DNA of 64,000 nucleotides from Dokdonella fugitiva (GTDB taxonomy: Bacteria; Pseudomonadota; Gammaproteobacteria; Xanthomonadales; Rhodanobacteraceae): positions 186,001 to 250,000 of the forward strand of contig NZ_JACGXL010000006.1 of assembly GCF_014138265.1 (NCBI RefSeq), in the 5' to 3' direction. Shown here one piece after another: positions 1-43,550 of this stretch (the first letter of the stretch is position 1; each line of letters opens with the position of its first letter). The notes under the pieces were generated by a model. It did no database searches. It was not told where the DNA came from and saw nothing but the letters and a program-made list of their open reading frames with translations. The position numbers and the translations under genes were made by a program.

Positions 1-1906
1 CGCCGAACGTCGCGTACAGATGCAGGGTGTCGAAGGCCGCGGCCTCGATGAGCATCGACGTCGTCGCGATGTTGTCCCGCCCGCCGCCGTTCGCGATCGT
101 CAGCGTCCGCGTCGCGACGATCTCGCCGCCGAGCAGCGCCTCGACGTGCAGCACGATGCCGCCCCATGGCCCGTTCTCGTAGTACGCCATGTCGAAGCGT
201 GCCGCGGACATGCGCGTCGGCAGGTCCAGTATCGCGCGGCTCAGCGCGCCGATCGAGAAGTTGTCGCCGTTGATGTACCCGCCGCCGAACGTCAGCATGT
301 TCGGCGAGCTGCCGATGCCCGGGAAGTCCGGGTAGAACAGTGTGGCGTTCTCGATGATGTACTGGTCGCCGACGAGTTCCGCGGTCGATGTCGAACCGTC
401 GGGGAAGGTGACGTCGAGTCCGTTGCAGTCATGGAAGTGGATGCCGGCGTAGTCGAATGCGTTGCCCTCGAAGCCTTCGGTGAGGTCGTCGAAGTCGACG
501 ATCAGCGGGTGCACGACGTCGAAGTCGTCGGTGAAGATCGTGTCGTCCAGCACATCGACGAGGCGCACCGCGCCGAGGTCGACGAGCAGCGAGGACGGGT
601 CGCGCTTGACCGGGCCGGCGACGACCGGTACGTCGCCCTGCAGCACGAGCGCGGTCGCGTTGCTGTAGGTGCCGGTCGGCGCGAGGTCGATCGACGCGAT
701 GCCGGCGCTGCCGAACTGCGGGTCGAGCACGCCGTGCGCATCGGTGCGGAACGCGACGAAGTCGGAGCGGCCGGGCACCGCCTCGGTCGCGCTCGCGACG
801 AGCGCGCCCCCGGACTGGCGCACGAGGCCAGTCACGTAGCGCGCGGCCGCGTCGGGCGCGAAATCGATCGGCGCGAAGCCGCTGCCGGCGTTGCCGAACG
901 TCGTGTCGGTGCTGCCGTCCACGGCGACGGCGCCGAGCACGACCTGCACCGAGCCCTGCGCGTCCTGGCGGTGGCCGCCGAACACGATCGCGCCGCCGCC
1001 GTCGACCAGCAGGCGGTCGATGCCGTTGAACGTCGACGCGTCGCCGTCGGCGTGGAAGACGCGCCAGCCGCTGCCGGCGAACGTGGTGTCGAGCTGGCCG
1101 TCGGCGGTGAAGCGCGCGAGCGAGAAGTCCGCGCCCATGCCCGCGCCGAACGCCTCGTACGAGCCGCCGACGACGAGCACGCCGCGCGGTCCGATCGCGA
1201 GGGTGCCGAGGTAGCCGGACTCGTCCTCGACGACCGCGGGCAGCGAGGCGATGCCGCCGTTGCCGAACGCGGCGTCGGGTGTGCCGTCGGCGTCGAAGCG
1301 CGCGAGGAAGCCCTCGTTCGGGGTGGTGCCGTGGATGCGTTCTCCGGCGACGACGATGCCGCCATCGGCATCGACGACCAGCGCATGGCAGTGCGCGCGG
1401 GGGATCGTCGCGAGGCCGGCGCCGTCCGCGAACGTCGCGTCGCGGTTGCCGCCTGCGTCGAGCCGGATCACGAAGCAGGTGAGCGGCCCGAACGCCGTCG
1501 CCGTGCCGGTCGCGAGGATCGTGCCGTCGGCGAGGCGCGCGATCGCCTCGATCTGCTGCGAGGCCGTCCCGGGCACGAGGTCGTCCATGACGCGGATGCC
1601 CGGCAGCGCCGGATCGGTGTTGAAGGTCTCGTCGGGCGAACCGTCCGCGTGCATGCGCGCGAGCATCGCGCGCACGTGCGGATCGGGGTTGCCGGCGACG
1701 CGCAGGTTGCGCGAACCACCGTACAGCAGCGAGCCGTCCGGAAGCGCGAGCGCGGCGCCGGCACGCAGTTCGTGGCCCTCGACGCCATCGAGCGACAGGA
1801 ACGCGAAACCGTGGTCGCCGAAGCCCGGGTCGGGCACGCCACCCGGGGTGGCGCAGGCGATGCCGCTCGCGGCGGCGAGGAGGAGGGAGAGGGTGCGAAG
1901 GATCAT
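1..1906 (-). CDS. Secreted delta-60 repeat protein with extra C-terminal domain (3' end outside window)
   Basis: Partial gene; the coding sequence runs off the left edge after 635 codons. The start is the ATG at 1904-1906, with GGAAG a few bases upstream, followed by a signal peptide ending near residue 20 (IACATPG). About seven repeats follow, each closing with a D-x-x-F-x-x-x-G turn (PDAAFGNGG, LDTTFAGSG, TDTTFGNAG, LDPQFGSAG). This is the delta-60 repeat pattern, a propeller-like family of unknown role. Residues 457-463 read IFTDDFD, the motif that ends several other exported proteins here, but at least 170 more residues follow, rich in Gly, Asp and aromatics. The first 450 residues are clearly paralogous to the protein at 42117-43550 (shared ALALPDG, GTATAFGPL-type stretches). 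The export and repeat assignments are firm; the function is unknown. Confidence 0.85.
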   Translation of the reverse strand, partial: MILRTLSLLLAAASGIACATPGGVPDPGFGDHGFAFLSLDGVEGHELRAGAALALPDGSLLYGGSRNLRVAGNPDPHVRAMLARMHADGSPDETFNTDPALPGIRVMDDLVPGTASQQIEAIARLADGTILATGTATAFGPLTCFVIRLDAGGNRDATFADGAGLATIPRAHCHALVVDADGGIVVAGERIHGTTPNEGFLARFDADGTPDAAFGNGGIASLPAVVEDESGYLGTLAIGPRGVLVVGGSYEAFGAGMGADFSLARFTADGQLDTTFAGSGWRVFHADGDASTFNGIDRLLVDGGGAIVFGGHRQDAQGSVQVVLGAVAVDGSTDTTFGNAGSGFAPIDFAPDAAARYVTGLVRQSGGALVASATEAVPGRSDFVAFRTDAHGVLDPQFGSAGIASIDLAPTGTYSNATALVLQGDVPVVAGPVKRDPSSLLVDLGAVRLVDVLDDTIFTDDFDVVHPLIVDFDDLTEGFEGNAFDYAGIHFHDCNGLDVTFPDGSTSTAELVGDQYIIENATLFYPDFPGIGSSPNMLTFGGGYINGDNFSIGALSRAILDLPTRMSAARFDMAYYENGPWGGIVLHVEALLGGEIVATRTLTIANGGGRDNIATTSMLIEAAAFDTLHLYATFG

Positions 1907-2287
1907 GCGCGCGGGCTTCCGATAACGGCCGCCAATCCGGCCGTTGATCAGAACGAACTTCGTCGGCCAACCTTGTCACGCGCGCACGCATGCCGCGTGC
2001 GGGGAGTGCCCACGAGGACGGCGGCGGCCCCCTGGAACGCACCCTGGCGCGGCGATGACGCGATCGCGTGTCGAGTACCGTTCTTCGGGATATGTCCCCT
2101 GCCGGCGCCGCCCCGATGAACGACGATCCCGTGATGGATGCGATCATGCATGCATGGAGCCGCCGGCTGCGGCGGTTCCTCGAAGACCCGGCCCCGGTCG
2201 GCAACGACGACGGTGCACCCGCGCCGGATGCGTTCGACGACTGCCGCGACGGCACATCGCGGTCCTCGTCACCCGGGGCATGAGGGT
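1907..2287. other. Gap upstream of the VOC gene
   Basis: This 381-base stretch separates the minus-strand delta-60 gene from the plus-strand VOC gene. Apart from the doubtful short frame at 2092-2283, I see no gene, hairpin with a T-run or clear promoter pair in it. Divergent promoters must lie here if the two flanking genes have their own. Confidence 0.4.
2092..2283 (+). CDS. Possible small ORF before the VOC gene
   Basis: A frame of 63 codons runs from the ATG at 2092 (another Met is at 2116) to a TGA that ends five bases before the VOC start. The predicted product is hydrophilic, with a Met-rich, basic first half (DAIMHAWSRRLRRFLEDP) and an acidic, Ser-rich tail. There is no clear Shine-Dalgarno sequence and I recognise no family. 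The close spacing to the next gene would suit a leader or coupled gene, but open frames of this size are common by chance at this base composition. It could be noise. Confidence 0.28.
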   Translation: MSPAGAAPMNDDPVMDAIMHAWSRRLRRFLEDPAPVGNDDGAPAPDAFDDCRDGTSRSSSPGA

Positions 2288-2683
2288 GTGATCCATCACC
2301 TCGACCTGACCGTGAGCGACCTCGAGCGTTCGCTCGCGTTCTACGACGCGATGCTCGACGTGCTCGGCTACCGCCGCACGCACGACTACGCCGGCAGCGT
2401 GCCGGTGTGGGTGAGCGTCGATGCCGTCGCGAAGACCAGCATCGGCCTGCATCGCGCGAGCGTCGACGCCGCGCACGACCGCCGCGCGCCCGGCCTGCAC
2501 CACGTCGCGTTCCAGGTGGCTTCGCGCGACGACGTCCATGCCGCGCATCGTCGCGCACTGTCGATCGGCGCCATCGTGCTCGATGAACCCGCCGAGTACG
2601 ACTACGCGCCGGGCTACTACGCGGTGTTCTTCGCCGACCCGGACGGGATCAAGATCGAGGTCGTGTTCGAACCGGCTGCTTGA
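2288..2683 (+). CDS. VOC family (glyoxalase/bleomycin-resistance fold) protein
   Basis: A 131-residue protein of the vicinal-oxygen-chelate superfamily. The GTG at 2288 is chosen because it puts the first beta strand (VIHHLDLTVSDLERS) at the N-terminus and gives the usual single-unit length; the frame extends further upstream but with low-complexity sequence. Metal-ligand candidates are the His in IHHLDL, the His in LHHVAF and the Glu in IKIEVVFEP at the C-terminus, in the usual order. The motif FFADPDGIKIEVV is typical of glyoxalase-like and dioxygenase-like members. Such proteins bind a divalent metal and act on small substrates in the cytoplasm, often as dimers. The substrate cannot be told, and the neighbours give no clue. 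Confidence 0.85.
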   Translation: MIHHLDLTVSDLERSLAFYDAMLDVLGYRRTHDYAGSVPVWVSVDAVAKTSIGLHRASVDAAHDRRAPGLHHVAFQVASRDDVHAAHRRALSIGAIVLDEPAEYDYAPGYYAVFFADPDGIKIEVVFEPAA

Positions 2684-2755
2684 GGCGGTGTCCCGGTTGT
2701 CGGTCGCGACGTGGAAGCCGCGATACCGTCGCGCTCGGAGGTGCCAATGTCTTCG

Positions 2756-2782
2756 GTAGGGGCGCCTTCAATCGCGATGCCG
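2756..2782. repeat. Degenerate REP copy
   Basis: The sequence GTAGGGGCGCCTTCAATCGC and the bases after it resemble the REP core of the 3622-3695 element (GGGAGCG-CC...-GCGATG). It is a single degenerate copy between two genes. Confidence 0.45.
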
Positions 2783-4379: not shown

Positions 4380-5246
4380 TCAAGGCACCTGGCAGTCGAA
4401 CCCGTCCTCGAACAGGCAGCCGCTCGCGGGTCGCGGCTCGCCGTAGATGAAGTCGTCGAGCGCGACCACGTCCACGCCGGACACGCCGTCGTTGTTGGAT
4501 GCACTGAGCGCATGCGTGCCCGAGCGGATCACCACGTGGTCGATCATCTCGCCGGCATTGAACGACACGCCGACGAAGGAGAGGCCGCCGTTCAACACGG
4601 GGGCGCTCGCCGCGACCAGCTGGCTGCCGTCGGTGGCGTAGTAGCTGATGACGCTCGCATTGGCGGAGTCGACGTCGGCGAACACCGCGCCGAAGCCTTT
4701 CACGACGGCCGGCGTGGTCGTGCCGGGCTGGTAGAACTTCACGAGCATCGCGTGACCCGCTCGCGGCGTGAACAGGCGCTCCGCGGAAAACGTGATGAAC
4801 GTCGACGCGTACGCGGGATTGATGTTGCCGAAGCGCACCGGAACGCCCGATGCCGTCGATGCACTCACCGTGAAATCGTTGAACGCGCTGCCGCCGTCCT
4901 CGAGCAGCGTGTGGAACACCACCCCGCGCGGCGAGGTGGTGTTGAAGAAATCCGGCGTGAGGAAGTTGGGCGTGGCGGACGCATTGGGCACGCCGTCCCA
5001 GTTGATTTCGCGACGCCCGTCGGCAAACGAACCGCCGACGCCGTTGTTGTTGCCGCCGAGGTCCGCGCGGAACGTGTCGACCAGCGCCTGCAACGCCGCA
5101 GGGCTCGCGCCCGAGCCTTGCCGGACCACCGGCGCCGCGTGCGCGTCGACGACGGCGATGCCGATCGCGAGCGCGCCGAGCGCGCGCAGGCCGATCGCGT
5201 GGACCGCACTCCGAAGCGACGAAGCAACCCCCAGGTCTGCTTGCAT
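4380..5246 (-). CDS. Secreted protein of unknown function with FEDGFD tail
   Basis: A 288-residue exported protein. The ATG at 5244-5246 has GGGGAG about nine bases upstream. The signal peptide is long, ending near HAAPVV. The mature chain is rich in beta-forming, Asn and Gly residues, with PRGVVFHTLLEDGGSAFNDF, a ring of aromatic/Gly motifs and a C-terminal jelly-roll-like stretch (VGVSFNAGEMIDHVVIRSG, then VVALDDFIYGEP) that recalls secreted concanavalin-like or PEP-CTERM-associated domains. No catalytic motif is visible. The last residues are GCLFEDGFDCQVP, a Cys-flanked version of the FxxGFD tail found on other exported proteins in this window. It has no operon partner. The function is not assigned. 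Confidence 0.75.
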   Translation of the reverse strand: MQADLGVASSLRSAVHAIGLRALGALAIGIAVVDAHAAPVVRQGSGASPAALQALVDTFRADLGGNNNGVGGSFADGRREINWDGVPNASATPNFLTPDFFNTTSPRGVVFHTLLEDGGSAFNDFTVSASTASGVPVRFGNINPAYASTFITFSAERLFTPRAGHAMLVKFYQPGTTTPAVVKGFGAVFADVDSANASVISYYATDGSQLVAASAPVLNGGLSFVGVSFNAGEMIDHVVIRSGTHALSASNNDGVSGVDVVALDDFIYGEPRPASGCLFEDGFDCQVP

Positions 5247-11711: not shown

Positions 11712-13049
11712 TCAGAATCCGTCGGCGAAGATCAGGTCGCTCTCGAAGCGGGCGATCGCGCCGACGTAATTGCCGTTCCCGTCGGCCGCGCTTCCGGCCG
11801 CCACGATGCGGCCGCTGCTCAGCGCAACGGCGGTAAACGATGACGGCGGGTCGACGATGTGGTCGGCGTCGATCGTTTCCATACCGCTCACGCCGAATGT
11901 CGGGTCGAGTCGACCGGATCCATCGAGGCGGCCCAACAGGCCGAACCTTTCGAGTAGATGCGCGGAGCCCGCGACTACGATCCGGTCGTCTTGCTGGATC
12001 GTGACGGCGGCGCCTACGGTCGACCATTGCCGGGTGCCCTCGGTCCATCGCAGTCGCGTAACGCCGATATCGCCGAAACCAGTGTCGATCGAGCCGTCAT
12101 CGAGGACACGCATCGCCATGGCGATGGTGTCGGAAAAGTCTCTCACGCTGCCGCTGAGCGCGAGCGCGCCGTTCCGCTGCACGGCGATGCTCAAACCCTC
12201 CGAGTCCGGAGGCCCCAGCATCTCCCCGCCGGTTCCGAATGTCGTGTCGAGCCTGCCGTCGGGCTGGAAGCGCACGGCAGCCATGCGGCCATGATTCGCG
12301 CCGGTTATCGTGGACGTGCCGGCGATGACCGCGCGTCCTTCTTGATCAACGGCGATGGCCGTCGCGATATTGCGATCGAAGAAGACCGCAAGGCCGGCGA
12401 TCGCCACGCCGGAGTAGCCAAACGTCGTATCCATCGAGCCATCCGGCAAGAGGCGCATGACCTGGAAATCGGCCGCCAAGGATGTGATGAAGGTTGCGCC
12501 GTACCCGGCGACGAGGATCTTGCCGTCACGCTGCAACGCCAGAGCGTTGGCATATCCGCTGTGCGAAGTATGGATGCCCGTACCTCCAGCGAAGGTCGGA
12601 TCGAATGCGCCATTCGGCGTAAGTCTGGCCACGATGCGCACCGCGCTCCAGCTCGGTGGTGACATCGTCTCCATCGAACGACCCGAGACGATGACGCGTC
12701 CGTCCGGTTGCAATGCAATGCCCGTGCACAGCGCAGGCTCCGACGTTGCGATGATCAATCGCATACCGTCGGCGCCGAACTCGCGGTCGGGCGTGCCGTC
12801 CGCGAGTAGCTGGAACACCACAATCTTCGAGCCCGTCGATTCGCCGTCCCAGGTCCCGCAGGCGACGATTCGACCGTCGGGGCGCGCAGCGACGGCCTGA
12901 AGGGCCGTTCCGGCGAGCCCGACGCGCGCCACGCCGCCGGTGCCGAATGTCGGATCGAGCGCGCCGTCGACGGCGTGCGCGTCACCCGCGGCATAGGCCA
13001 AGGCAACGATGAAAACGAAGCGAAGCTTCGACGGCCGACGCGATGACAT
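11712..13049 (-). CDS. Secreted delta-60 repeat protein ending LIFADGF
   Basis: A 445-residue exported protein. The ATG at 13047-13049 has GGGGGAT upstream and is followed by a signal peptide (KLRFVFIVALAYAAGDAHA). The mature chain is seven delta-60 repeats ending in LDPTFGTGG, PDREFGADG, FDPTFAGGTG, MDTTFGYSG, LDTTFGTGG, IDTGFGDIG and LDPTFGVSG, each preceded by a strand pair such as GRIVACG, GRVIVSG or GKILVAG. The whole probably folds as a beta-propeller. The last nine residues are ESDLIFADGF, with the stop directly after the Phe, so the FxDGF tail is truncated by one residue compared with others. G+C is somewhat lower than in the other two delta-60 genes and similarity to them is limited to the repeats. 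The function is unknown. Confidence 0.88.
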   Translation of the reverse strand: MSSRRPSKLRFVFIVALAYAAGDAHAVDGALDPTFGTGGVARVGLAGTALQAVAARPDGRIVACGTWDGESTGSKIVVFQLLADGTPDREFGADGMRLIIATSEPALCTGIALQPDGRVIVSGRSMETMSPPSWSAVRIVARLTPNGAFDPTFAGGTGIHTSHSGYANALALQRDGKILVAGYGATFITSLAADFQVMRLLPDGSMDTTFGYSGVAIAGLAVFFDRNIATAIAVDQEGRAVIAGTSTITGANHGRMAAVRFQPDGRLDTTFGTGGEMLGPPDSEGLSIAVQRNGALALSGSVRDFSDTIAMAMRVLDDGSIDTGFGDIGVTRLRWTEGTRQWSTVGAAVTIQQDDRIVVAGSAHLLERFGLLGRLDGSGRLDPTFGVSGMETIDADHIVDPPSSFTAVALSSGRIVAAGSAADGNGNYVGAIARFESDLIFADGF

Positions 13050-13327: not shown

Positions 13328-14818
13328 TCAGCGCGCGCTGCCCACCACGAGGTTGTCGAACACGCCCCAGACGTAGTTGCCGTCGCCGTCGGCGACCGGG
13401 GCGCTGAACGTGAGGGCGTGGATCGGGCGGGTCGAGACGAAGCCGCGGAAGTCCTGCTGGCTCGTCGCGGTGAACGTTTCGACGGTGCCGTCAGCGAGCT
13501 CGATGCGGATCGCCGTCGGCGGCTGCAGGTTCATCTCGATGCTCGTGAGGTTCTGGAACATCTGCCCCCAGACGTTGCCGCCGATCGCGGTGACCGGTGC
13601 GCCGGTGAAGGTGATCGTGAGGGCCGAGGTGTCGCCGGCGGACACGGTCGACAGTTCGCCGGCGCCGTCGAACAGGTAGAAGTCGCCGATGTCGTAGCTC
13701 GGTGCGGCGGTGACGGCGTAGGGATAGGCGTTGCCGAACGGCAGCGGGCCGTGCACGTAGCCGGTGCGCAGCGCGGTGAACGCGTTCGTCTCGTAGCCGG
13801 GTGCGACCGCGGCGAGGAACGCGTCGCGGTCGTCGAACGTGCGCAGCGCGTTCGCGCACGTGCCGTCCGCATCGTCGTCGAAGCCGTTCGCGAAGATGTT
13901 GCTCGGCGACGCACACGACACGGCGGCCACGCTGAACTGCAGCGGGATCGCGCGCATCGGCTCGGCCGGATCGTTGCTCGCGATGCAGAGCGCGGCCGTG
14001 TGCGTGCCCGCGGTGACGATGCTCGCGTCGAACGTCAGCGCGACGTCGGCGTGCGCGCCGGCGGCGACGGCGCCGCTCGCGGGAGCGAACGTGAGCCACG
14101 GTTCGATGACCGGCGTGCCGCAGTCGGGCGGCGTGACGCCGTCGTTGAGCGTGGTCGTGATCGTGTAGTCCAGCGTGCCTGCGCCGGTGTTGCCGATCGC
14201 GAGCGTCTGCACGCTCTGCATGTCGCCCTGCGTCGCCAGTGCGAGCTTCGAGGCGACCGCGAGGATCGGCTGCGTCGGCGCGCCTTCGTCGCCGAGCGTG
14301 AGCACGAGGTCGGCTTCGCTCGGCGGATCGCCGTTACCGTCGCCGAGCGCGTGCACGGTCAGCGGCAGGTCACCGGTGTAGCCGGCCGGCACGTCGATGT
14401 CGACGATGACGATCTGTTCCTCGCCGGGGTCGGGCGATCCGGCGAAGCTGCCGCAGCCGTCGAGCGCGGGCCAGCCGAGCTGGTACCAGCCGCCGTCACT
14501 CGTGCCCATGCCGTTGACGAGCGGATGGATGTCCGAGCAGAACGTGAAGGTGTTGCGCTTGCGCACGGCCGAGAGCGTGACGCCTGCGGGCAGCTGGAAG
14601 GTGAGTGCGTCGGCGCCGCCGAACGCGTTCGACACGACGTGCAGGTCGAGCAGGAAGGCGTTGATGCGGCCGCGCGCGTAGGTCGTCGGCGTGCTCGTGC
14701 CGGTGACGGCGATGTCGGCGTGGGCGAGCGGCGCGAAGGCCGTGCCGAAGCACGCGGCGGCGAGGGCGGCGGCGCGCAGCGTACGCGCATGGAAACGCGG
14801 GAAGGACGAGGCGATCAC
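13328..14818 (-). CDS. Secreted protein with internal IFANGFD motif and C-terminal beta domain
   Basis: A 496-residue exported protein. The start is the GTG at 14816-14818, which overlaps the stop of the upstream gene (GTGA); no Met lies in a suitable place. A signal peptide ends near PLAHADIAV. Residues about 25-300 hold two beta-rich regions, including QTLAIGNTGAGTLDYTI and FDASIVTAGTHTAALCIASN, an ASH/HYDIN- or choice-of-anchor-like Ig stretch. Residues 308-314 are IFANGFD inside SNIFANGFDDDADGTC. The C-terminal third begins DRDAFLAAVAPGYETNAF and ends DFRGFVSTRPIHALTF, then VWGVFDNLVVGSAR, and is paralogous to the whole mature part of the upstream gene. The coupling suggests the two act together outside the cytoplasm. 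The function is unknown. Confidence 0.82.
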   Translation of the reverse strand: MIASSFPRFHARTLRAAALAAACFGTAFAPLAHADIAVTGTSTPTTYARGRINAFLLDLHVVSNAFGGADALTFQLPAGVTLSAVRKRNTFTFCSDIHPLVNGMGTSDGGWYQLGWPALDGCGSFAGSPDPGEEQIVIVDIDVPAGYTGDLPLTVHALGDGNGDPPSEADLVLTLGDEGAPTQPILAVASKLALATQGDMQSVQTLAIGNTGAGTLDYTITTTLNDGVTPPDCGTPVIEPWLTFAPASGAVAAGAHADVALTFDASIVTAGTHTAALCIASNDPAEPMRAIPLQFSVAAVSCASPSNIFANGFDDDADGTCANALRTFDDRDAFLAAVAPGYETNAFTALRTGYVHGPLPFGNAYPYAVTAAPSYDIGDFYLFDGAGELSTVSAGDTSALTITFTGAPVTAIGGNVWGQMFQNLTSIEMNLQPPTAIRIELADGTVETFTATSQQDFRGFVSTRPIHALTFSAPVADGDGNYVWGVFDNLVVGSAR

Positions 14819-15677: not shown

Positions 15678-15763
15678 GGAAAAGGGGACGGAGGTAATTA
15701 ACGGCGCGGGAGCGAGGGGCCCCGCCAGGCTACGCCCCGTTAATTACCTCCGTCCCCTTTTCC
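15678..15763. repeat. 27-bp perfect inverted repeat, MITE/REPIN-like
   Basis: GGAAAAGGGGACGGAGGTAA and the seven bases after it (15678-15704) are repeated exactly in reverse complement at 15737-15763, around a 32-base G+C-rich loop. The GGGGACGGAGGTAATTAA core is of the type I associate with REP elements and RAYT transposases. The right arm enters the 3' end of the gene at 15740-18256 and supplies its stop codon. The remainder of the gap 15511-15739 shows nothing. Confidence 0.8.
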
Positions 15764-18256
15764 TTCCCGCGGCGCCGGGGCGAGCGTGAGCTCGGCCGGG
15801 ATCGCACGCTCGCCGGCGAGTTCGCGCGCCGCCGCGAGTGCACTGCGCCAGGCGGTAGGCTCGCCGAGCGCGTGGGCGAGGCGGAGCTGGAGCAGGGCGC
15901 AGTCGAAGTCGTCGGCGGCCCAGGCGCCGACCCGGCCGACCAGCGCGGCCGCGTCGCCGAGCCGGTCGCGGGCGATGAGCGCGCCCGCCCAGGATTCGAT
16001 CACCATCGCCATCGTGCGCGGCGTGCCGTCGGCATCGGCGAGGTCGAGTGCCTGGCGCCAGGCGCGGTCGGCGTCGTCGGGCCGGCCGAGCGCGAGCGCA
16101 CGTTCGGCTTCGGCGAGACGGCGGTAGGGTGCGCCCGCGCGCGAACCGGCATCGGTGCGCGTCGACGGCGCGATCGCCACGCCGGGTTCGGCTGCGGTCG
16201 GCGGCAGCACGCGCTGGCGCCAGAGGTTCGCCTTCGCCTGCAGCGTGTCGTCGGCGCCTTCGGCCATCAGCGCCGCGGGCAGCGGGGCGGCTTCGCGCGC
16301 GGCGTCGTCGTGGCGGCCTTCGGCGAGCGCGAGTTCGACGCGCAGCACGCGGATGCGCAGGTCGTCGCGCGACAACTGCAGGTAGCCCTGGTCGCCGCGT
16401 TCGATCTGCGCGAGCGCGTCGTGCACCGCGCGCAACTGGCCGCAGGCGAGCTGGATGCGCGCGCGCATGAGGGTGAGCACGCGCAGCAGCAGCGGGTCGC
16501 CGCCGCCGGCGGCGAGCGTCCACGTGCGATCGCTGGTCGCGAGCGCGGCGTGGTTCTGCAACTGGTCGAGCTGCACGTCCTGCAGGCCGATCAGCGCGCT
16601 CTTGAGCGGGCGCATCGCGGCGAACGCCTCGAACTGGCGCGCGGCCGCCTCGTAGCGCGGCATCGCCTGCGTGGCGGCGCCGCGCGCGGAATCGAGCAGT
16701 GCCCATTCGAGGTCGGCGCGCGCAACCGCGAGGCGGTCGCCGCTCTGCGCGAGCACGACGCGCGCGCGGCCGAGGTCGTCGGCGGCGGCCGCGTAGTCGT
16801 TGGCGATCGTGCTCGATGCGCCGCGACCGAGATACGCCTCGCCGAGCGCATGTTCGTAGTTGCCGGCGCCCTGCGCGGCGAGCGCGCCGTCGAAGTCCGC
16901 GCGTGCTTCCTGCGCGCGGCCGAGGCGGATGCGCCCGCTGCCGCGCGTGATGAACACGCGCATGCGCAGGTAGGCGTCGTCGCTCGTCGGCTTGCGCTCG
17001 AGCAACTGCGTGAGTTCCTGCTCGGCCGCTTCGTAGTGGCCGAGGCGTTGTTCGACCTGCGCGTGCAGCAGGCGCGCCTCGCCGTCGTCGCGTTGCGCGT
17101 CGGGGATCGATTCGAGCGTCGCCTTCGCGCTCGCCGGATCGTCGGCGAGCAGCGCGGCGCGCACCCGCTGCAGGCGTTCGGCCGAAGCCGCGTCGGCGGG
17201 CTCGACCGGCACGTCGCGACCGAGCGCGACGATGAGCTGGTCGCTCGCGCGGCGCAGCGCGCCGACGAGATCGTTGTCGGTCGCGCTCGCCTGCACGTCG
17301 CGCGTGCCGTCGAGCGCGCCGTGCAGCGCGACGTTCCACGCGGCGTGGTCGCGCGCGACGCGGCCGTCGACGATGAGGCCGATGCCCGCGTCGCGGCGCA
17401 GCCGCGCCGTCGCGCCGTCGGGGTCGGCCTTGCCTGCGGTGAGCACGCCGAGTGTCGCTTCGCTCGGCAGCACCGCGAGCTGCGCGCGGCGCAGGCGGTC
17501 GGCGACGAGGTCCATGCCGCCGAGGCGCACCCAGGCGACGTCGGCGCCGCTGCCGACCTCGAGCGGCCGCACGGCGACGTGCAGCGTCGCGTCGGTGCCT
17601 GCGGGAACTGGCGCGGTTTCGGCGCGGTGGCGCAGGAACAGCGCCGCTGCGATCGAAACGAGCGCGAGCACCATGAGCACGCCGGCGAGCGCGCTGCGCG
17701 ATGCGCGGCGCGTGCGCGGCGCCGCGCGTCGCGCGTCGCGCGGATCACCGGATGATGCCGGGAGCGGTGATGCCGGCGAGACGTTTGCGAGCGCTGCGTT
17801 CGTCGCGTCGGCCCGGGCGTCGGCTGCGTGCGAACCCGGCATCGGCGACGATGCGGTCATCGCCGGCGCTGCGACGGCGCGCGTCGGATCGCGTTCCTGC
17901 AACGACGCCGGCATCGCCGCGCCCGCGTCGCCGATCGCCTCGACGGTCGTCGCGACGACCCAGCGATAACCGAAGCCGGCGATCGTGCGGATCGCTTCCT
18001 GGCGGTCGGCGCTGTCGCCGACGAGCCGGCGCGCGCGCAGGATGAGCTGGAACAGTTGCGTGTCGGAGACGTTGTCGCGCCGCCACACCGCGGCGATGAG
18101 TTCCGACTGCGGCACCGCGCGCTCGCGATGCTCGATGAGATGGGCGAGGCACGCGAACACGCGCGCGGGCATGTCGATCGGCTCGTCGCCGCGCCGCAGC
18201 TCCCGCTTTACCGTGTCGAGCCTGAATTCGCCGAAGCGGAAGACCGCGTTGACCAT
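15740..18256 (-). CDS. CadC-like membrane regulator: winged helix, one TM segment, TPR region
   Basis: An 838-residue protein. Residues 1-105 form an OmpR/CadC-type winged-helix DNA-binding domain (FRFGEFRLDTVKRELRRG, then IAAVWRRDNVSDTQLFQLIL and IRTIAGFGYRWV). A Pro/Ala-rich linker leads to a single membrane segment at about 189-208. The extracytoplasmic part (about 215-838) has an alpha/beta region with VAVRPLEVGSGADVAWVRLG, then many helical TPR-like pairs. The ATG at 18254-18256 is chosen by analogy with the paralogue at 43789-46200; no strong ribosome site is visible. Such proteins sense periplasmic conditions and act directly on DNA. The last seven residues (GKGDGGN) and the stop are encoded by the arm of the inverted repeat at 15678-15763. 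The target genes are unknown; the secreted-protein genes downstream are candidates. Confidence 0.88.
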   Translation of the reverse strand: MVNAVFRFGEFRLDTVKRELRRGDEPIDMPARVFACLAHLIEHRERAVPQSELIAAVWRRDNVSDTQLFQLILRARRLVGDSADRQEAIRTIAGFGYRWVVATTVEAIGDAGAAMPASLQERDPTRAVAAPAMTASSPMPGSHAADARADATNAALANVSPASPLPASSGDPRDARRAAPRTRRASRSALAGVLMVLALVSIAAALFLRHRAETAPVPAGTDATLHVAVRPLEVGSGADVAWVRLGGMDLVADRLRRAQLAVLPSEATLGVLTAGKADPDGATARLRRDAGIGLIVDGRVARDHAAWNVALHGALDGTRDVQASATDNDLVGALRRASDQLIVALGRDVPVEPADAASAERLQRVRAALLADDPASAKATLESIPDAQRDDGEARLLHAQVEQRLGHYEAAEQELTQLLERKPTSDDAYLRMRVFITRGSGRIRLGRAQEARADFDGALAAQGAGNYEHALGEAYLGRGASSTIANDYAAAADDLGRARVVLAQSGDRLAVARADLEWALLDSARGAATQAMPRYEAAARQFEAFAAMRPLKSALIGLQDVQLDQLQNHAALATSDRTWTLAAGGGDPLLLRVLTLMRARIQLACGQLRAVHDALAQIERGDQGYLQLSRDDLRIRVLRVELALAEGRHDDAAREAAPLPAALMAEGADDTLQAKANLWRQRVLPPTAAEPGVAIAPSTRTDAGSRAGAPYRRLAEAERALALGRPDDADRAWRQALDLADADGTPRTMAMVIESWAGALIARDRLGDAAALVGRVGAWAADDFDCALLQLRLAHALGEPTAWRSALAAARELAGERAIPAELTLAPAPREGKGDGGN

Positions 18257-24258: not shown

Positions 24259-25902
24259 TCACGGTCCGTCGAAGCCCGCGAAGAACAGGTGCTCGCGCAT
24301 GCGCTCGGCGTCGATGCAGGCGACGTGGCCGGGCTTGCCGCAGTCGCGCAACAGGGCGAGGTCCGCCTGCAGCACCGCGCGTTGCGCTTCGTGCGCGCCG
24401 TCGCGCGGGTCGAACGATTGCAGCTGCAGCGGATCGGCGACGAGGTCGTAGTGTTCGCTGCCGGCAGCGGTCGGATCGGTGAGCCAGTCGTCGCGCCAGT
24501 CGACGAACAGCTGCATGCCGGTGTCCTCGTCGTCGCCGCTCGCGGTGCGCACGCCGAGGAAGTCGAGCCAGCTCACCGGCGATGGCGCGGCGTCGCGGAA
24601 GTGCTCGACGAGGAAGCGGCGTCGCCATGCCGGCGGCTGGTCCTGCGCGAACAGGGGCGCGAGATCGCGGCCGTCGGGCACGGTCGGCAGCGCGGCGCGC
24701 GCGAGCGCGGCGATCGTCGGTGCGAGGTCGTTGTTGAGCACGAGCGCGGCGCGGTGCGCGCCCGTGGCCACGCCCGGGCCACGCAGCAGCAGCGGCACGC
24801 GGATCGATTCCTCGTAGGCGAGCACCTTGCCGACGACGCGGTGCTCGCCGTAGAGCCAGCCGTTGTCGGAGGTGAAGATGACGTAGGCGTCGTCCCAGCG
24901 AGCGGCCGCGACGAGGCGCGCGCGGATCGTCGCGAACAGGTCGTCGACCGCGCGCAACGCCTCGAGGCGGTGGCGGTACTGGCGGTTCAACGTCGACACC
25001 TGGGTCGTGTCGAGGTTCGCGTACTCCTGCGCGAACCACGCGGGCTTGTCGCCGACGTCGGCCTCGTCGAACGACGCCTTGCTCACGTCGAGGTTGACGT
25101 AGGGCGGCAGCGAACCCGCATGGCGTGGTGCGGGACGCACGTCCCAGGCGGTCGGGTCCGGTGACGGCAGGCACAGTTCGTAGTGTGGCGCGAGCGGGCT
25201 CGCGACGAGGAACAGCGGCGCCGGCGTCGCGGCGACCGCGTCGATGAACGCGCCGGCGCGCTGCGCGATGACGTCGGTCTGGTAATCGGCGTCGGCGTTG
25301 CCGTAGGTGACGAGCGTGCCGCGGTCGTTCACCGTGTAGTTGTACATGCAGTACGCACCGGCATAGCCGGGCGATCCGTTGAGCTCGCCGTAGTCGGGCA
25401 GGCCCTGCCAGTCGGTCCAGCCCGCCGGCACGTAGCGCATGCGGCAGTCGGCGCTCGTGCAATCGGGATGGTTGCGCGGCGTCGTGTAGCCGTAGCCGTT
25501 GAGGAACTTGCCGACGAGGCCGGTGCGGTAGCCGATCCCGCCCAGCGCGGTCGCGATCGAGCGATCGTCGTCGAACGCGCCGAACGAACCGTCGGCGCCG
25601 AACTGGCCGCGCCGCACGCCGTGGTTGTGCGGGTACTGCCCGGTCATGAACGTCGCGCGCGACGGGCAGCAGAGCGAATCGGTCACGAACGATTCGTCGA
25701 AGCGCAAGCCGCCGTCGACCATCGCGGCCTCGATCGACGGCAGCAGGCCGAGCGCGAGCGCAGTGTCGAAGGTCGGCTCGTCGAGGTCGTCGGCCATCAG
25801 CACGACGATGTCGGGTGGCGAGCCGGCGTCGCCTGCGTGCGCAGGCCGTGGAACCGCCGCGGCGAATGCTAGCGCGCAGGCGCGCAGGGCGTGGGTAGGC
25901 AT
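24259..25902 (-). CDS. Exported type I sulfatase ending FFAGFDGP
   Basis: A 547-residue sulfatase. The ATG at 25900-25902 opens a signal peptide (MPTHALRACALAFAAAVPRPAHA). The metal-binding pair is in VVLMADDL (residues 34-40), and the formylglycine motif C-x-P-S-R is Cys78-Cys-Pro-Ser-Arg82 in LCCPSRATFMTGQYPHNHGV. This needs conversion of Cys78 by a formylglycine-generating enzyme. Later FTSDNGWLYGEHRVVGK holds the other metal ligands and active-site His/Lys. The enzyme removes sulfate esters from glycans or other molecules in the periplasm or outside. The final residues LFFAGFDGP match the FxxGFD tail of other exported proteins here. The NirV protein at 61903 has the FGE-like fold, but I do not propose it as the activator. 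Confidence 0.92.
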   Translation of the reverse strand: MPTHALRACALAFAAAVPRPAHAGDAGSPPDIVVLMADDLDEPTFDTALALGLLPSIEAAMVDGGLRFDESFVTDSLCCPSRATFMTGQYPHNHGVRRGQFGADGSFGAFDDDRSIATALGGIGYRTGLVGKFLNGYGYTTPRNHPDCTSADCRMRYVPAGWTDWQGLPDYGELNGSPGYAGAYCMYNYTVNDRGTLVTYGNADADYQTDVIAQRAGAFIDAVAATPAPLFLVASPLAPHYELCLPSPDPTAWDVRPAPRHAGSLPPYVNLDVSKASFDEADVGDKPAWFAQEYANLDTTQVSTLNRQYRHRLEALRAVDDLFATIRARLVAAARWDDAYVIFTSDNGWLYGEHRVVGKVLAYEESIRVPLLLRGPGVATGAHRAALVLNNDLAPTIAALARAALPTVPDGRDLAPLFAQDQPPAWRRRFLVEHFRDAAPSPVSWLDFLGVRTASGDDEDTGMQLFVDWRDDWLTDPTAAGSEHYDLVADPLQLQSFDPRDGAHEAQRAVLQADLALLRDCGKPGHVACIDAERMREHLFFAGFDGP

Positions 25903-30345: not shown

Positions 30346-30969
30346 ATGACCACATCCAGCTCCGCCCGGGTCGCGCTCGCGCTCGCCATGGCGTGCGCTG
30401 CGCCGTTCGCGCACGCGACCAACTTCGCCGTCAGCGGCACGATCACCGTGAACGGCAACCCGGGCGCGCTGCCGGACGGCGGCACGTTCGGCAATTCCAC
30501 CTACAACGCGACCACCGGCGCGCTGTCGTCGGGCAAGTTCACGTTCCCGCAGGCGACGACGTCGTTCCCGTCGCAGATCGGCACGGTCACGGTCACCTAC
30601 CAGCTCAGCCAGACCAATACCACGACCGGCCAGGTCGCGAGCGACGGCGTCGCCGCGCTCACCCAGGCGCGCCTCAAGCTGCAGGTCGTCTCGGCCGCGA
30701 TCGGCGTGATCCCGATCGGCATCGGCACCTGCGTGTTCCAGCCGATCAACGTCGACCTCGCGGGTACCGGTGCCGCCTCGGGCCTCGACCTTTCCGACGA
30801 AGGCTTCACGATCCCGCAGGTCGCGTCGACCGACTGCGGCGGTTACGGCGACCAGATCAACGCGGGCGTCGCCGGCAGCAACAACAGTCTCGCGATGCAC
30901 GTCGCCGGCAACTTCACGCCGCCGCCGGAATCGGACATCATCTTCGCGAACGGCTTCGACGGCGGGTAA
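30346..30969 (+). CDS. Secreted protein ending IIFANGFDGG
   Basis: A 207-residue exported protein. The signal peptide is ARVALALAMACAAPFAHA. The mature chain is Thr/Ser/Gly-rich and beta-prone: FAVSGTITVNGNPGALPDGG, GKFTFPQATTSFPSQIGTV and VTYQLSQTNTTTGQV. There are two cysteines (GTCVFQP and STDCGGYGD). It ends PPPESDIIFANGFDGG, a full example of the tail motif, preceded by a Pro-rich spacer as in a separable signal. It resembles pilus- or surface-associated beta-sandwich proteins, but I recognise no family. The M23 peptidase gene follows on the same strand after 78 bases and carries the same kind of tail. Confidence 0.8.
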   Translation: MTTSSSARVALALAMACAAPFAHATNFAVSGTITVNGNPGALPDGGTFGNSTYNATTGALSSGKFTFPQATTSFPSQIGTVTVTYQLSQTNTTTGQVASDGVAALTQARLKLQVVSAAIGVIPIGIGTCVFQPINVDLAGTGAASGLDLSDEGFTIPQVASTDCGGYGDQINAGVAGSNNSLAMHVAGNFTPPPESDIIFANGFDGG

Positions 30970-31047: not shown

Positions 31048-32229
31048 ATGCGCAGCCGCTTTCCACGGTGGGCCCTTGCGGCCCTTGTTTCCCTCGCGTC
31101 CGTCGCTTCCGCCGCGCCACCCGCCGGCGGCGGCCGCTTCACGCCGCCGCACGACGAACTCACGCCCGGGCAGCGCGCGCGCATCGATGCCGAACTCGCG
31201 CGCAACGTCGCCGCGCTCGAACGCGACGGCGTGCTCGCGCCGTCGTCGCCGCTGCCGCTGCAGGCGGGCCTGCAGTGGCCCTTGAAGATCACCGCGGGAC
31301 ACGCCGATCCCGCGTACCACGGCATCTCCAACTTCGTCGACCTCGACGGCACGTATCCGAACCATATCCTCGACTGGAACTGTGGCACGCGCACGTACGA
31401 CCTCGACACCGGCTACAACCATGCCGGCATCGACATCTTCCTGTGGCCGTTCTCGTGGCTGCTGATGGACCAGCAGGCGATCGACATCGTCGCCGCCGCG
31501 CCGGGCACGATCATCGGCAAGGTCGACGGCAACGACGACCGCAGTTGCTTCGACCACTATTCCGCCGACTGGAACGCGGTCTACGTGCAACACGGAGACG
31601 GCACGGTCGCGTGGTACGGCCATATGAAGAAGTCGTCGCAGACGAGCAAGCCGATCGGCGCGACCGTCGCGGCCGGCGAATTCCTCGGCAAGGTCGGCAG
31701 CGCGGGCTTTTCGACCGGTCCGCACCTGCATTTCGAGAACCATTCGGGCGTGTCGAACTACACGATCCTCGAGCCGTTCCACGGCGCCTGCAACGCGCCC
31801 GCATCGCTGTGGGCGCAGCAGCGGCCGTACTACGATTCGGCGATCAACAAGCTCGCCACGCACACGGCGCCGCCCGATTTCCACGACCCCAATTGCCCGA
31901 ACCCGATCGACGAGACGCCGAACCTGTCGGACCGCTTCCTCGCCGGTGCGACCGTCTATTTCGCCGCGTACTACCGCGACCAGCTCGGCCCGCAGGCGAC
32001 CACGTTCACGATCGCGCGTCCGAACGGCACGGCCTTCGCGACCTGGACGTTCCGCATGTCCGACGCGACCGCCGATCCGTACTACTCCGCGTCCTACTGG
32101 TACTGGTGGTACACCTTGCCCGCGAACGCGCCGCCCGGCTTGTGGCAGTTCCGCGCGAGCTACCAGGGCGTCGCCTACGAGCACGCGTTCTTCGTCGGCG
32201 ACGTGATCTTCGCCGACGGCTACGACTGA
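31048..32229 (+). CDS. Secreted M23 (LytM-type) metallopeptidase ending VIFADGYD
   Basis: A 393-residue exported protein. The ATG at 31048 has AAGGAG eight bases upstream, deciding it over an upstream Met. A signal peptide (RWALAALVSLASVASA) is followed by a pro-region, then the M23 core: YNHAGIDIF gives His125 and Asp129, and GPHLHFEN gives His226-Leu-His228, the usual Zn ligands and catalytic His. GTVAWYGHMKKSSQ and GEFLGKVGSAGFSTG fit the fold. A C-terminal beta domain (about 290-393) follows. It likely cuts peptidoglycan cross-links or elastin-like proteins outside the cell. The end GDVIFADGYD is a Tyr variant of the FxDGFD tail. Confidence 0.92.
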   Translation: MRSRFPRWALAALVSLASVASAAPPAGGGRFTPPHDELTPGQRARIDAELARNVAALERDGVLAPSSPLPLQAGLQWPLKITAGHADPAYHGISNFVDLDGTYPNHILDWNCGTRTYDLDTGYNHAGIDIFLWPFSWLLMDQQAIDIVAAAPGTIIGKVDGNDDRSCFDHYSADWNAVYVQHGDGTVAWYGHMKKSSQTSKPIGATVAAGEFLGKVGSAGFSTGPHLHFENHSGVSNYTILEPFHGACNAPASLWAQQRPYYDSAINKLATHTAPPDFHDPNCPNPIDETPNLSDRFLAGATVYFAAYYRDQLGPQATTFTIARPNGTAFATWTFRMSDATADPYYSASYWYWWYTLPANAPPGLWQFRASYQGVAYEHAFFVGDVIFADGYD

Positions 32230-40601: not shown

Positions 40602-41491
40602 GCGAGCATCCGTTCCACGTTGAGCACCATCACGCCGCGTGCACCGAGGCGCTTGAGTTCCTCGAGGTGCTGCCAGTCGAGGCTCGCGCTGCACAGCGCC
40701 TGCATCGCGACGTCGTCGGGGCGACCGTCGAGGCCGAGCACGCTCGGCGCTTCGCGCGAGGGCAGCAGGCGTGTGATCGCCGGCAGCGCGGCACGCGGAG
40801 CCTGCAGCATGAGCAGGCGCGCGCCCGCGCCGGACAGCGCGCCGGCGATGCGCGCGCCGAGTCGCTCCACGAGTTGCGTCGCCGCCGCGCCGCGTGGGCG
40901 CGGGCTCGCGGCGAGCACGGCCTCGCTGCGCAGCACGGTGGTCAGTTCACGCAACTGGTTTGCGGCGAGCGTGGCGCCGCTCGAGACGAGGTCGCAGATC
41001 GCGTGCGCCTTGCCGAGGCGCGGTGCGATCTCGACCGAGCCTGCGAGCAGCACGACTTCGGCCTCGATGCGCTGCGCGCGCAGCCAGTCGGCGAGCAGGG
41101 CCGGATAGGACGTGGCGATGCGCAGGCCGGCGAGGTCGCCGATCGACTCGATCGTGCCACCGTCCGGTACCGCGATCGCCAGCCGGCAGCCGCCGAAGCC
41201 GAGGTCGAGCAGCGCGACCGGTGCGGCGGCTTCGCCGCCGGCGAGGCGCTGCTCGTCGAGCACGTTGCGGCCGACGATGCCGAGTTCGCAGCTGCCTTCG
41301 ACGAGCAGGCCGGGGATGTCGTCGTCGCGCACGAGCAGCACGTCGACGGGCAGGTTCTCGCCGTACAGGAACAGCTTGTCGCGGCTCGCGCGGAACGCGA
41401 GCCCGGCACGGCGCAGCAGGTCGAGCGACGCCTCCGACAGGCGCCCGGATTTCTGCACGGCGATGCGCAGGCGGTCGCGACCGTCGTTCAT
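40598..41491 (-). CDS. hisG: ATP phosphoribosyltransferase (long form)
   Basis: A 297-residue first enzyme of histidine synthesis. [20 protein letters not shown] at the N-terminus, [32 protein letters not shown] and the phosphate loop [17 protein letters not shown] are all typical. The length matches the long form with a C-terminal ACT-like regulatory domain, which gives feedback inhibition by histidine, and so no HisZ is needed. The ATG at 41489-41491 overlaps the stop of the TrpR-like gene (ATGA), so the regulator and the first enzyme are coupled. Confidence 0.97.
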
Positions 41492-41820
41492 CGCGCGCTC
41501 CTCGCCGTGCGGCGGGGCTTCGCCGCGCGCGCGGCCGCGATCGCGTAGCCGCCCGCGCCCTGGTCGAGGCAGCGCGCGACGCGGCCGATCGTGGTGATGC
41601 TGACCGCGGTCGCGTCGTGGATCTGCCAGTACGGCTCGCCCGCGAGCAGGTGCGGCACGACGCTCCAGCGGTCGCGCATCGCTTCGCGTTCGGCCGGCGT
41701 GCAGAGGTCGTCGAGGAACGCGCGCATCTCCTCGACGCTGCGCAGCGACAGCAGTGCCTCGCACAGCGAGCGCTCGGCGCGTTCCGAGTCGAGTTCGGGT
41801 TCGATCTGGCGTCGTTTCAT
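41488..41820 (-). CDS. TrpR-related (YerC/YecD-type) regulator heading the his operon
   Basis: A 110-residue protein of the TrpR-like YerC/YecD family. The core runs SLCEALLSLRSVEEMRAFLD, DLCTPAEREAMRDRWSVV and PHLLAGEPYWQIHDATAVSI, then TTIGRVARCLDQGAGGYAI, where the last two helices form the TrpR-type helix-turn-helix. The basic tail ([10 protein letters not shown]) is extra. It is the first gene of the histidine operon, its stop overlaps hisG, and a palindrome lies 11 bases before its start. The likely role is a histidine-responsive repressor of the operon that also controls itself. The family and position are visible; the ligand and mode are inferred. Confidence 0.88.
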   Translation of the reverse strand: MKRRQIEPELDSERAERSLCEALLSLRSVEEMRAFLDDLCTPAEREAMRDRWSVVPHLLAGEPYWQIHDATAVSITTIGRVARCLDQGAGGYAIAAARAAKPRRTARSAR

Positions 41821-41830
41821 CGCGTAAATG

Positions 41831-41847
41831 TATTAGCGCGTTAGTAT
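41831..41847. promoter_or_regulatory. Leader palindrome, candidate operator of the his operon
   Basis: TATTAGCGCGTTAGTA approximates the perfect palindrome TACTAACGCGTTAGTA (6 of 8 matches per half) and resembles Trp-box-like sites bound by TrpR-fold proteins. On the minus strand it overlaps TATACT, a good -10 element, 11-27 bases before the first gene of the operon, so a bound repressor would block transcription. Confidence 0.65.
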
Positions 41848-41923
41848 ATCGATCCGCATGCTAGCGGATGTGGTGCTGCGGCGCAACCGGCGCGGAGCGC
41901 AGCGGCACGGATGCGGGGACCTC

Positions 41924-41996
41924 GTGGTAGCGGCGACAGCCGCGATGCTCTCGGCTGGCTGGACGGAAAGCATCGCGCCTTCCGGCGCTCCACGAC
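41924..41996. repeat. REPIN, diverged copy
   Basis: GTGGTAGCGGCGACAGCCGC plus GATGCTC is followed after about 20 bases by GCATCGCGCCTTCCGGCGC plus TCCACGAC. It is the same inverted doublet as at 3622-3695. It lies in the 296-base gap between the his operon leader and a delta-60 gene, which otherwise holds only the operator. Confidence 0.75.
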
Positions 41997-42116
41997 GAGC
42001 GACTCGCGGCATGCAGGGGGATTGCTGGAACCTCATCGGAGCACCGATGAAGGCGGACCGGCCGCGCCTTGGGGGAGAGAGGGGGCGCGGCCGGTCCTGT
42101 CGACGGAGCTGGGGAA

Positions 42117-43550
42117 TCAGCGCGTTCCGTCGAAACCGTTGGCGAAGATGCGATCGGCGCCGTCGCTGGTCAGGCGCAGCAGTGCGAGTTCGTACAGCGG
42201 CGAGGTGCGTTCGGCCATGCCGGCGACGACCACGCGACCGAGCGCGTCGAGCGTGAGTGCGGACGGGTCGCTGAACACGCCGCCCGGCGCCATGTCGACG
42301 CTGGCGATGCCGGCGTCGCCGAAGCTCGCGTCGAGCAGGCCGTCGGGGGTGAAGCGGAACGCGAGGAAGCTCGACTCGGGGCCGACGTAGCTGATCGACG
42401 CGACGAGCTTGCCGTCGGACTGGCGCACGAAGCCGGTCGCGTAGCGCGTGAATGCGCCGGGTGCGATCGCTACCGGCTGGAAGCCGTCGCCGCCGGTGCC
42501 GAACGCGGTGTCCATCGCGCCGTCGACGCCGATGCCGCCGAGCACGGTTTCGATGCTCGTGTTGCCTTGGCCGTCGTCGACTTGATAGTGGCCGACGAAC
42601 ACGGCGCCGCCACCGGCGGTCGGCAGCAGGCGATCGATGCTGTCGATGATCTGGCCGCTGTCGTCGGGACGATGGAACACGCGCCAGCCGGTGCCCGCGA
42701 ACGCGGTGTCGAACGCGCCGGTCGCGTCGAGGCGCGCGATCGCGAAATCCGAACCCATGCCCGCGCCGTAGACTTCGTAGCCGCCGCCGACGAGGATGCC
42801 GTCGCCTTCGGTGAGGCCGAGCGTGCTGAGGTAGCCGCCGCGGCTCTCGCCCGCGGCATCCCAGTCGATGACGACGCCGCCGTCGGTGCCGAACGTCAGG
42901 TCGGGCGCGCCGGTCGCGTCGAAGCGGGCGACGTAGCTGTGCGCGACTGCGCTGATCGCCTTCTCGCCGGCGATCACGAGGCGGCCCTGGCTGTCGACCG
43001 CGAGCGTGTGCACGTAGACGTCGGGGATGAGCTGGATGCCGTCGGTGCCGAACGTCGTGTCCATCGTGCCTTCCGCGTCGAGCTTGACGAGGAAGCCGCG
43101 CAGCGGACCGAACGCGGACGCGGTGCCGGCGACGATGATCGAGCCGTCGCCGAGGCGGACCATCGCTTCGATGATCTGCATGCCCGCGCCGGTCAGCGGC
43201 ACGAGATCGGGCAGCACGAGCACGCCGGGGATGCCCGGGATGTTGCCGAAGCCGGCGTCGGGCGTGCCGTCCGCGTCGAAGCGCGCGAGCATCGCGCGCA
43301 TGTGCGGATCGAACGGGCTCGACGGGATGAACTTGTTGCGCTCGCCGGCGACGAGGATCTTGCCGTCGGGCAAGGCCAGCGCCGCGTACGGGCGCAGCTC
43401 GCGCGCCTCGACGTCGTCGGGCGTGATGTAGGCGGCGCCGCCGAGGCCGAAGGTCGGGTCGGGCAGGCCGTCCGCGGCGCGCGCGGGGATCGTGAAGAGC
43501 GAGGCGAACAGCAGCAGGGCGCCCGTGTGGCTCAGGCGGGAAAACGACAT
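42117..43550 (-). CDS. Secreted delta-60 repeat protein ending RIFANGFDGTR
   Basis: A 477-residue exported protein. The ATG at 43548-43550 has GGAGA seven bases upstream and a signal peptide (SHTGALLLFASLFTIPARA). Seven delta-60 repeats end in PDPTFGLGG, PDAGFGNIPG, MDTTFGTDG, PDLTFGTDG, FDTAFAGTG, MDTAFGTGG and LDASFGDAG, with strands such as GKILVAGERN, GSIIVAGTAS and GRLVIAGEK between. It ends GADRIFANGFDGTR, the clearest tail motif in the window. It is closely related along its whole length to the protein at 1-1906, which has an added domain after its motif. It is probably a propeller on the cell surface or in the medium. The function is unknown. Confidence 0.88.
   Translation of the reverse strand: MSFSRLSHTGALLLFASLFTIPARAADGLPDPTFGLGGAAYITPDDVEARELRPYAALALPDGKILVAGERNKFIPSSPFDPHMRAMLARFDADGTPDAGFGNIPGIPGVLVLPDLVPLTGAGMQIIEAMVRLGDGSIIVAGTASAFGPLRGFLVKLDAEGTMDTTFGTDGIQLIPDVYVHTLAVDSQGRLVIAGEKAISAVAHSYVARFDATGAPDLTFGTDGGVVIDWDAAGESRGGYLSTLGLTEGDGILVGGGYEVYGAGMGSDFAIARLDATGAFDTAFAGTGWRVFHRPDDSGQIIDSIDRLLPTAGGGAVFVGHYQVDDGQGNTSIETVLGGIGVDGAMDTAFGTGGDGFQPVAIAPGAFTRYATGFVRQSDGKLVASISYVGPESSFLAFRFTPDGLLDASFGDAGIASVDMAPGGVFSDPSALTLDALGRVVVAGMAERTSPLYELALLRLTSDGADRIFANGFDGTR

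Follow-up and report, generated by a model that had tools for sequence, protein, structure and literature searches.

The window analyzed here, a stretch of 64,000 nucleotides from the genome of Dokdonella fugitiva (contig NZ_JACGXL010000006.1, positions 186,001 to 250,000), encodes eight exported proteins of quite different kinds, among them a sulfatase, an M23 peptidase and propeller proteins, which share a short motif of the type IFANGFD, six of them at the C-terminus. This raises the question what the motif is for and which cellular system reads it. We found that it belongs to a tag of approximately nine residues with the consensus D-x-[ILV]-F-x-[DN]-G-F-[DE], which is concentrated in exported proteins throughout the genome. 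The explanation we favor, with a confidence that stops just short of even, is that this linear tag delivers folded exported proteins to a specific type II secretion system (T2SS), termed T2SS-A here, most likely by docking to the PDZ domain of its GspC component.

Searches were performed with the strict form [ILVMF]F-x-[DNGS]-G-[FY]-[DE]. On the whole 4.77-Mb genome this pattern gave 181 DNA matches in all frames, compared to one match for the reversed pattern. At the protein level, 735 proteins (257 kaa) were called on 864 kb of DNA, comprising the window and two contiguous 400-kb stretches picked regardless of the motif, by means of a gene caller seeded on codon-position GC. These proteins contained 44 strict copies, while 200 composition shuffles yielded a mean of 0.38 and a maximum of 2, and the reversed versions of the 735 proteins none. 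The tag is not due to chance.

Signal peptides, scored by a crude rule of our own and not on the basis of SignalP, were present in 39 of the 44 tagged proteins as against 259 of the 691 untagged ones (p = 1.2e-11). Among the five tagged proteins failing the rule, three looked signal-peptide-like by eye, one did not, and one was a fragment of 77 residues. Besides the tag, the carriers share little: 34 of them exhibited a mean column identity of 10% and matched 46 Pfam families in total, and among the matches listed (25 of the 46) were subtilase, sulfatase, M23 peptidase, Kelch, FG-GAP and beta-helix proteins. A first-pass annotation of the window had held that common descent of the domains could hardly account for the motif, and our data agree; the motif was not equally frequent in cytoplasmic proteins, nor were its carriers homologous over their C-terminal domains. 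A shared domain could be suspected from the NCBIfam choice-of-anchor Q domain in six of the 34 carriers and from delta-60 repeats in four of them. Nevertheless, the excess over the shuffled sequences, the many Pfam families and the low identity refute both chance and a shared homologous C-terminal domain as the source of the motif, the probability of which we regard as negligible.

The position of the tag was studied in a 1.26-Mb sample of the genome, about one third of which had been picked around matches. Of 75 matches in open frames, 63 resided within the last 20 residues before the stop codon, 17 of them flush with it and 39 followed by one to five residues. An Asp at position -2, a residue outside the search pattern, was found in 52 of these 63 C-terminal copies and in 84 of 103 such copies in the loci retrieved by a collection scan for I-F-K-[DN]-G-F-E-stop, which had identified 90 stretches. 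Approximately half of the 12 sampled copies lying more than 20 residues from the stop followed directly on a signal peptide, as judged by eye, so that the mature N-terminus would start with or near the tag; the others were located within long proteins. Larger exported proteins of D. fugitiva with the tag right behind an apparent signal peptide are encoded at loci L047, L056, L062+, L066, L085 and, less clearly, L042.

The view of the first-pass annotation that the motif is an address signal is supported by the data, with the refinement that the C-terminus is not its only location. The annotation had also considered a processing signal. If the tag were cut by a protease dedicated to C-terminal processing, the location of most copies at the extreme C-terminus would be accounted for. 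However, in copies flush with the stop (the 17 mentioned and most of those in the collection-scan loci) nothing is left to be cleaved off, and the copies that directly follow signal peptides or separate domains also argue against a cleaved C-terminal signal, which makes this explanation highly improbable. At protein ends in three Marinicella loci (L131, L195, L204), tandem tags ten residues apart were seen (IFxNGFESD[IV]IFKDGFE-stop).

For a comparison of genomes, those with 15 or more matches were called tag-rich. Out of 276 genomes of the class, 272 fall outside the host's order; they had at most 13 matches, which is no higher than the maximum of the reversed control. In the host's order, 72 of 220 genomes were tag-rich, with up to 175 matches. 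Among the genomes sampled, amplification of the tag is therefore confined to one order. The 80 tabulated records of the collection scan belong mostly to Lysobacterales (Marinicella species, Rhodanobacteraceae, Dokdonella, metagenome-assembled genomes), some being otherwise labelled, while six stretches from unrelated records consisted of short frames and look like chance matches. One genome of the same genus as the host (G001, 80% complete) had zero matches.

The first-pass annotation had suggested that a protease or transporter might follow the motif across genomes. This was borne out to the extent that a T2SS with a PDZ-containing GspC co-varies with the tag in most families of the order (designated f1, f2 and so on), but with exceptions, and family f8 shows no such relationship. 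Scoring a match of E 1e-12 or better as classical GspC, 68 of the 72 tag-rich genomes were positive, compared to 31 of the 148 tag-poor ones (Fisher p = 2.7e-27, a value that ignores shared ancestry). Eight tag-poor f2 genomes, whose matches were weaker (7.5e-4 to 3.0e-9), were scored as negative. Four rich genomes had no GspC match, but one of them (G406) has a T2SS-A secretin fragment and another (G342) a T2SS-A gspG-N locus. In f1, the seven GspC-positive genomes contained 0 to 175 tags, six of them at least 39 (39-175), and the 44 negative ones 0 to 7. The two T2SS-A genomes of f2 had 69 and 105 tags, the other 50 had 0 to 3. In f9, 9 to 96 tags were counted in 28 GspC-positive genomes and a single one in G316, in which no T2SS secretin was found. 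In f10, GspC was detected in all 31 genomes, yet 20 of them have just 1-6 tags with Gly at position 5. These 20, from two related genera (19 from g19, one from g282), make up the greater part of the 31 GspC-positive tag-poor genomes.

Secretin searches in 75 genomes revealed that tag-rich genomes usually possess two T2SS secretins above the cut-off; in f1, f2 and f8, most tag-poor genomes have a single one, whereas g19 genomes also have two. In the regions around 20 secretin loci, two systems could be distinguished, T2SS-A and T2SS-B. The genes of T2SS-A are split into gspC-D-E-F, adjoining rho-, trx- and rhlE-like genes (named by eye) in many genomes, and a second locus, gspG-N, which was found in six genomes and mostly lies beside bioA-like and cysQ-like genes (by eye, from order and sequence). 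In D. fugitiva, these loci are situated at approximately 86.8-94.4 kb of contig C7 and 69.3-75.1 kb of contig C6, on which the window covers 186-250 kb. The T2SS-A GspC tested contains T2SSC and PDZ domains, and a profile of ten T2SS-A GspCs matched the solved PDZ domains of OutC, EpsC and PulC. T2SS-B exhibits the Xps gene order E-F-G-H-I-J-K-L-M-(N)-D. The only GspC/N-like protein of this system that was tested (L239) had no Pfam match, which is consistent with the helix reported to replace the PDZ fold of OutC and EpsC in Xanthomonas GspC (PMC11981180). A secretin profile, whose model included three of the 17 T2SS-A genomes, gave 632-1046 bits for T2SS-A, 428-449 for an intermediate kind and 244 or less for Xps-like secretins. 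The f2 genome G507 showed a GspC match of 9e-14, yet its secretin is of the intermediate kind (449 bits) like that of G353 (446 bits). GspK was useless as a T2SS-A marker, giving weak matches everywhere, but gspG-N was located by way of its loci. Next to T2SS-B, there is a gene for a conserved exported protein of roughly 500-580 aa (L228, L231, L234, L236, L239, L245, L368, L369), a relative of which lies within the T2SS-A locus of D. fugitiva (L227:12489-13922). Where tested (L239), this protein had no Pfam match, and a second neighbour matched rotamase. The protein and its neighbour are possibly dedicated cargo.

If T2SS-A is the reader, as we infer, the signal peptide would take the carriers across the inner membrane. 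Once they have folded in the periplasm, the tag would remain accessible, usually as a tail at the C-terminus and more rarely at the N-terminus of the mature protein or in a linker between domains. It would then hand the folded carriers to T2SS-A, most likely through binding to the GspC PDZ domain, and the T2SS-A secretin would be their exit to the exterior or to the surface of the cell. The prevalence of signal peptides (39 of 44 by the crude rule) and of a classical GspC (68 of 72 rich genomes) is what would be expected of T2SS substrates. A precedent is VesB, whose secretion is reported to require the PDZ domain of EpsC (PMC12369372).

This reading leads to the expectation, stated ahead of the search, that the GspC-positive but tag-poor f10 genomes use a variant form of the tag. 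In a 400-kb sample of G351, a member of g19, exported proteins were found to end with DRLFNDRFEQD and DRMFHDRYEQ. Searching 46 genomes for F-x-[DN]-[R/S]-[FY]-E, we obtained 11-81 matches in 17 of the 20 f10 genomes in question, a number that includes G351 as the source of the Arg form; the other three had 1, 6 and 6. Eight T2SS-A-negative genomes gave 0-2 matches, G507 none, and two tag-rich f8 genomes without GspC, G355 and G386, six and none, respectively. Some of the matches do not represent tags: of 12 loci from other g19 genomes, nine contained the Arg/Ser match at most six residues from the stop and three inside other frames. Mostly-Ser forms were common in G027 and G028 (36 and 35 matches). 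Judging from these sequences, position 5 is Gly, Ser or Arg depending on the lineage. Unless a common reader exists, it is difficult to see how many unrelated proteins could have changed in concert at a single position. It is possible, albeit somewhat doubtful, that one motif read by the GspC PDZ domain recruits scores of unrelated folded proteins and works at either end of them, and that its concerted shift from Gly to Arg/Ser in two genera reflects a single reader whose specificity changed.

Several findings weigh against T2SS-A as the reader. In f8 the association vanishes, the five GspC-positive genomes having 1, 1, 2, 22 and 34 tags (median 2) and the 25 negative ones 0-19 (median 3). Six f8 genomes without a T2SS-A secretin contain 8-19 matches (G386, G355, G366, G444, G420, G410), and true C-terminal tags were read in loci of G386, G444, G355 and G420, though in only one of four in the latter. 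G355 and G386, in which only an Xps-like T2SS was found, are true exceptions among the four rich genomes lacking GspC. Three of the six genomes are 88-90% complete; recent loss, incomplete assembly or another reading system are possible alternatives. Five further genomes (G493, G371, G415, G449, G378) are nearly devoid of tags, whether of the Gly or the Arg/Ser form, although they possess T2SS-A. Moreover, a classical GspC occurs outside the order, e.g., in the E. coli control, and the tag is not amplified there, so that T2SS-A alone is insufficient. The Fisher value is backed by only a handful of independent contrasts, and the machine genes profiled were GspC, GspD and GspK, which leaves room for a better-fitting gene. 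PDZ domains classically bind free C-termini, but the 39 tags trailed by one to five residues and the internal or N-terminal ones do not end there. Finally, some positions of the GspC PDZ domain are acidic in the Arg-form genera and mostly not in others (column 432 in 12 of 12 versus 2 of 19). These residues are only a hint, since they stem from one family that includes a haloalkaliphile and may reflect general acidity.

The tagged f8 genomes without T2SS-A and the five almost tagless ones with it would suit another envelope machine reading the tag. The match with T2SS-A would then be indirect, both having been present in the ancestor of the order and having disappeared from the same large lineages. 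We consider this unlikely, as the co-variation recurs within f1, f2 and f9, and as 17 of the 20 f10 genomes expected to use a variant did contain an Arg/Ser form.

Another explanation concerns the fate of the carriers. T2SS-A might export them by virtue of other features, the tag then holding them at the cell surface via a receptor or a modification. Domains named after anchors do occur among the carriers, namely choice-of-anchor Q in the six mentioned, and choice-of-anchor J and a MYXO-CTERM-named family in one carrier each. The choice-of-anchor Q model stops, in all four cases inspected, 2-7 residues ahead of the tag core, the very place at which other lineages have known anchors. In Wenzhouxiangella AB-CW3, which we took as G351, proteinase activity is reported to be cell-bound and undetected in the supernatant (PMC7691419). 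This activity, which may or may not stem from tagged proteins, fits surface retention as well as delivery. Furthermore, the tag has neither the helix nor the basic cluster of known anchors, and no receptor or modifying enzyme was found, no systematic search having been made. On balance, a surface-retention anchor appears rather unlikely to us.

In the C-terminal sorting signals PEP-CTERM, GlyGly-CTERM and MYXO-CTERM, a signature motif precedes a hydrophobic helix, behind which lies a basic cluster. It had been noticed in the window that the motif lacks a membrane helix and an Arg cluster, and this proved to be general: 61 of the 63 C-terminal copies are followed by at most 13 residues, 17 by none, and the tripartite layout was not observed. 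Curated sorting-signal models were absent from the NCBIfam matches listed for the 34 carriers (25 of 57 families) and from other carrier matches. Type IX secretion, in which whole folded C-terminal domains serve as signals, resembles the proposed system in its portable C-terminal signal, diverse cargo and outer-membrane exporter, but the tag described here comprises some nine residues and is not followed by any additional domain; Por machinery was not searched for.

Like the GlyGly-CTERM/rhombosortase system (PMC3237569), the tag is a short C-terminal element on many unrelated exported proteins, and VesB is reported to be both a GlyGly-CTERM protein and a T2SS substrate (PMC12369372). Unlike it, the tag is without helix and basic cluster, occurs in other positions too, and implicates no intramembrane protease, though no search was aimed at one. 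With PEP-CTERM/exosortase it has in common a C-terminal signal that is present or absent by genome and whose machinery was matched by phylogenetic profile (PMC1569441); PEP motif, helix and Arg cluster are missing, however, and the profile indicates a T2SS, with no search made for exosortase genes. MYXO-CTERM/myxosortase likewise comprises dozens of carriers per genome in one lineage (PMC11980579), and one of our carriers belongs to a MYXO-CTERM-named family, but the invariant cysteine and the tripartite layout are not shared. Also related to the mechanism proposed is the recognition of folded Sec substrates by the PDZ domain of GspC through disordered or graftable elements, as described for Pel3/PelI-OutC and VesB-EpsC (PMC7949064, PMC12369372). 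The T2SS signals described in these reports are structural and variable, comprising flexible loops or graftable domains, and a linear universal signal is said to be lacking (PMC12369372), whereas here one linear motif is common to scores of proteins.

A literature search, in which subscription journals were thinly covered, found no description of the motif by title or abstract. This is in line with the first-pass annotation, which knew of no sorting signal of this form, and the tag apparently has not been described so far. If it is read by T2SS-A, secretion would be predictable from sequence throughout an order, the destination of cargo could be changed with nine extra residues, and peptides would allow a direct test of whether the tag binds GspC. 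Even if it were a surface anchor only, it would be an apparently undescribed sorting tag that cultured as well as uncultured bacteria carry on scores of proteins per genome.

In the window itself, all eight motifs reported by the first-pass annotation were recovered, five as strict and three as degenerate matches. Three strict copies share the sequence IFANGFD. They are located at the C-terminus of an exported protein (30940-30960 in gene 30346-30969, plus strand), at the C-terminus of a DUF5122/delta-60 propeller protein (42129-42149 in 42117-43550, minus strand) and inside the protein encoded at 13328-14818 (13877-13897, minus strand), in which a weakly matched Ig-like region precedes and a further 182 residues follow the tag. 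The M23 peptidase (31048-32229, plus strand) ends with IFADGYD flush with the stop (32206-32226). The exported protein encoded at 4380-5246 on the minus strand bears LFEDGFD (4395-4415) followed by CQVP at its C-terminus; neither Pfam (E 0.01) nor NCBIfam (E 0.1) gave a match for this protein. The degenerate motifs all lie on the minus strand. A second DUF5122/delta-60 propeller protein (11712-13049) terminates with IFADGF-stop (11715-11732), the final acidic residue being absent, and the sulfatase (24259-25902) has the C-terminal variant LFFAGFD with Ala at position 4 (24268-24288). Weakest of the eight is the internal variant IFTDDFD with Asp for Gly (518-538) in a DUF5122/delta-60 protein (1-1906) that runs off the window start. 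As had been claimed, all eight carriers possess signal-peptide-like N-termini, judged by eye. Of the 54 genes called in the window, which omit the one cut by its start, five have the strict motif and the remaining 49 lack it.

Some carriers and neighbours deserve mention. A small exported family of about 85-100 residues with a GG..GQ..GGFW pattern (L149, L179, L182, L190, L193, L200, L275, L321, L082) has the tag as its best conserved part; an AlphaFold model of it was of low confidence (mean pLDDT 52) and was not used. Homologues of an M28 peptidase were found at eight places in seven of 32 genomes. The six tails read, all from five tag-rich genomes, were variable (two GFE; QFE, DLR, GDFE, GLD) and uninformative on tagless homologues. 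A match to NF038111 (rhombosortase-dependent M36) covered a stretch of 125 residues, lay far under the cut-off and was disregarded. No sorting enzyme was seen among the gene neighbours at 80 of the 90 collection loci (L129-L208), less the six unrelated records. The untagged families most widespread beside tagged genes, named by eye, were long kinase-like proteins (eight genomes) and ECF-sigma-like proteins (six genomes), e.g., at L133 and L182. In the window, two large proteins with similar, regulator-like N-termini (by eye) are encoded beside or near tagged genes at 15740-18256 and 43789-46200.

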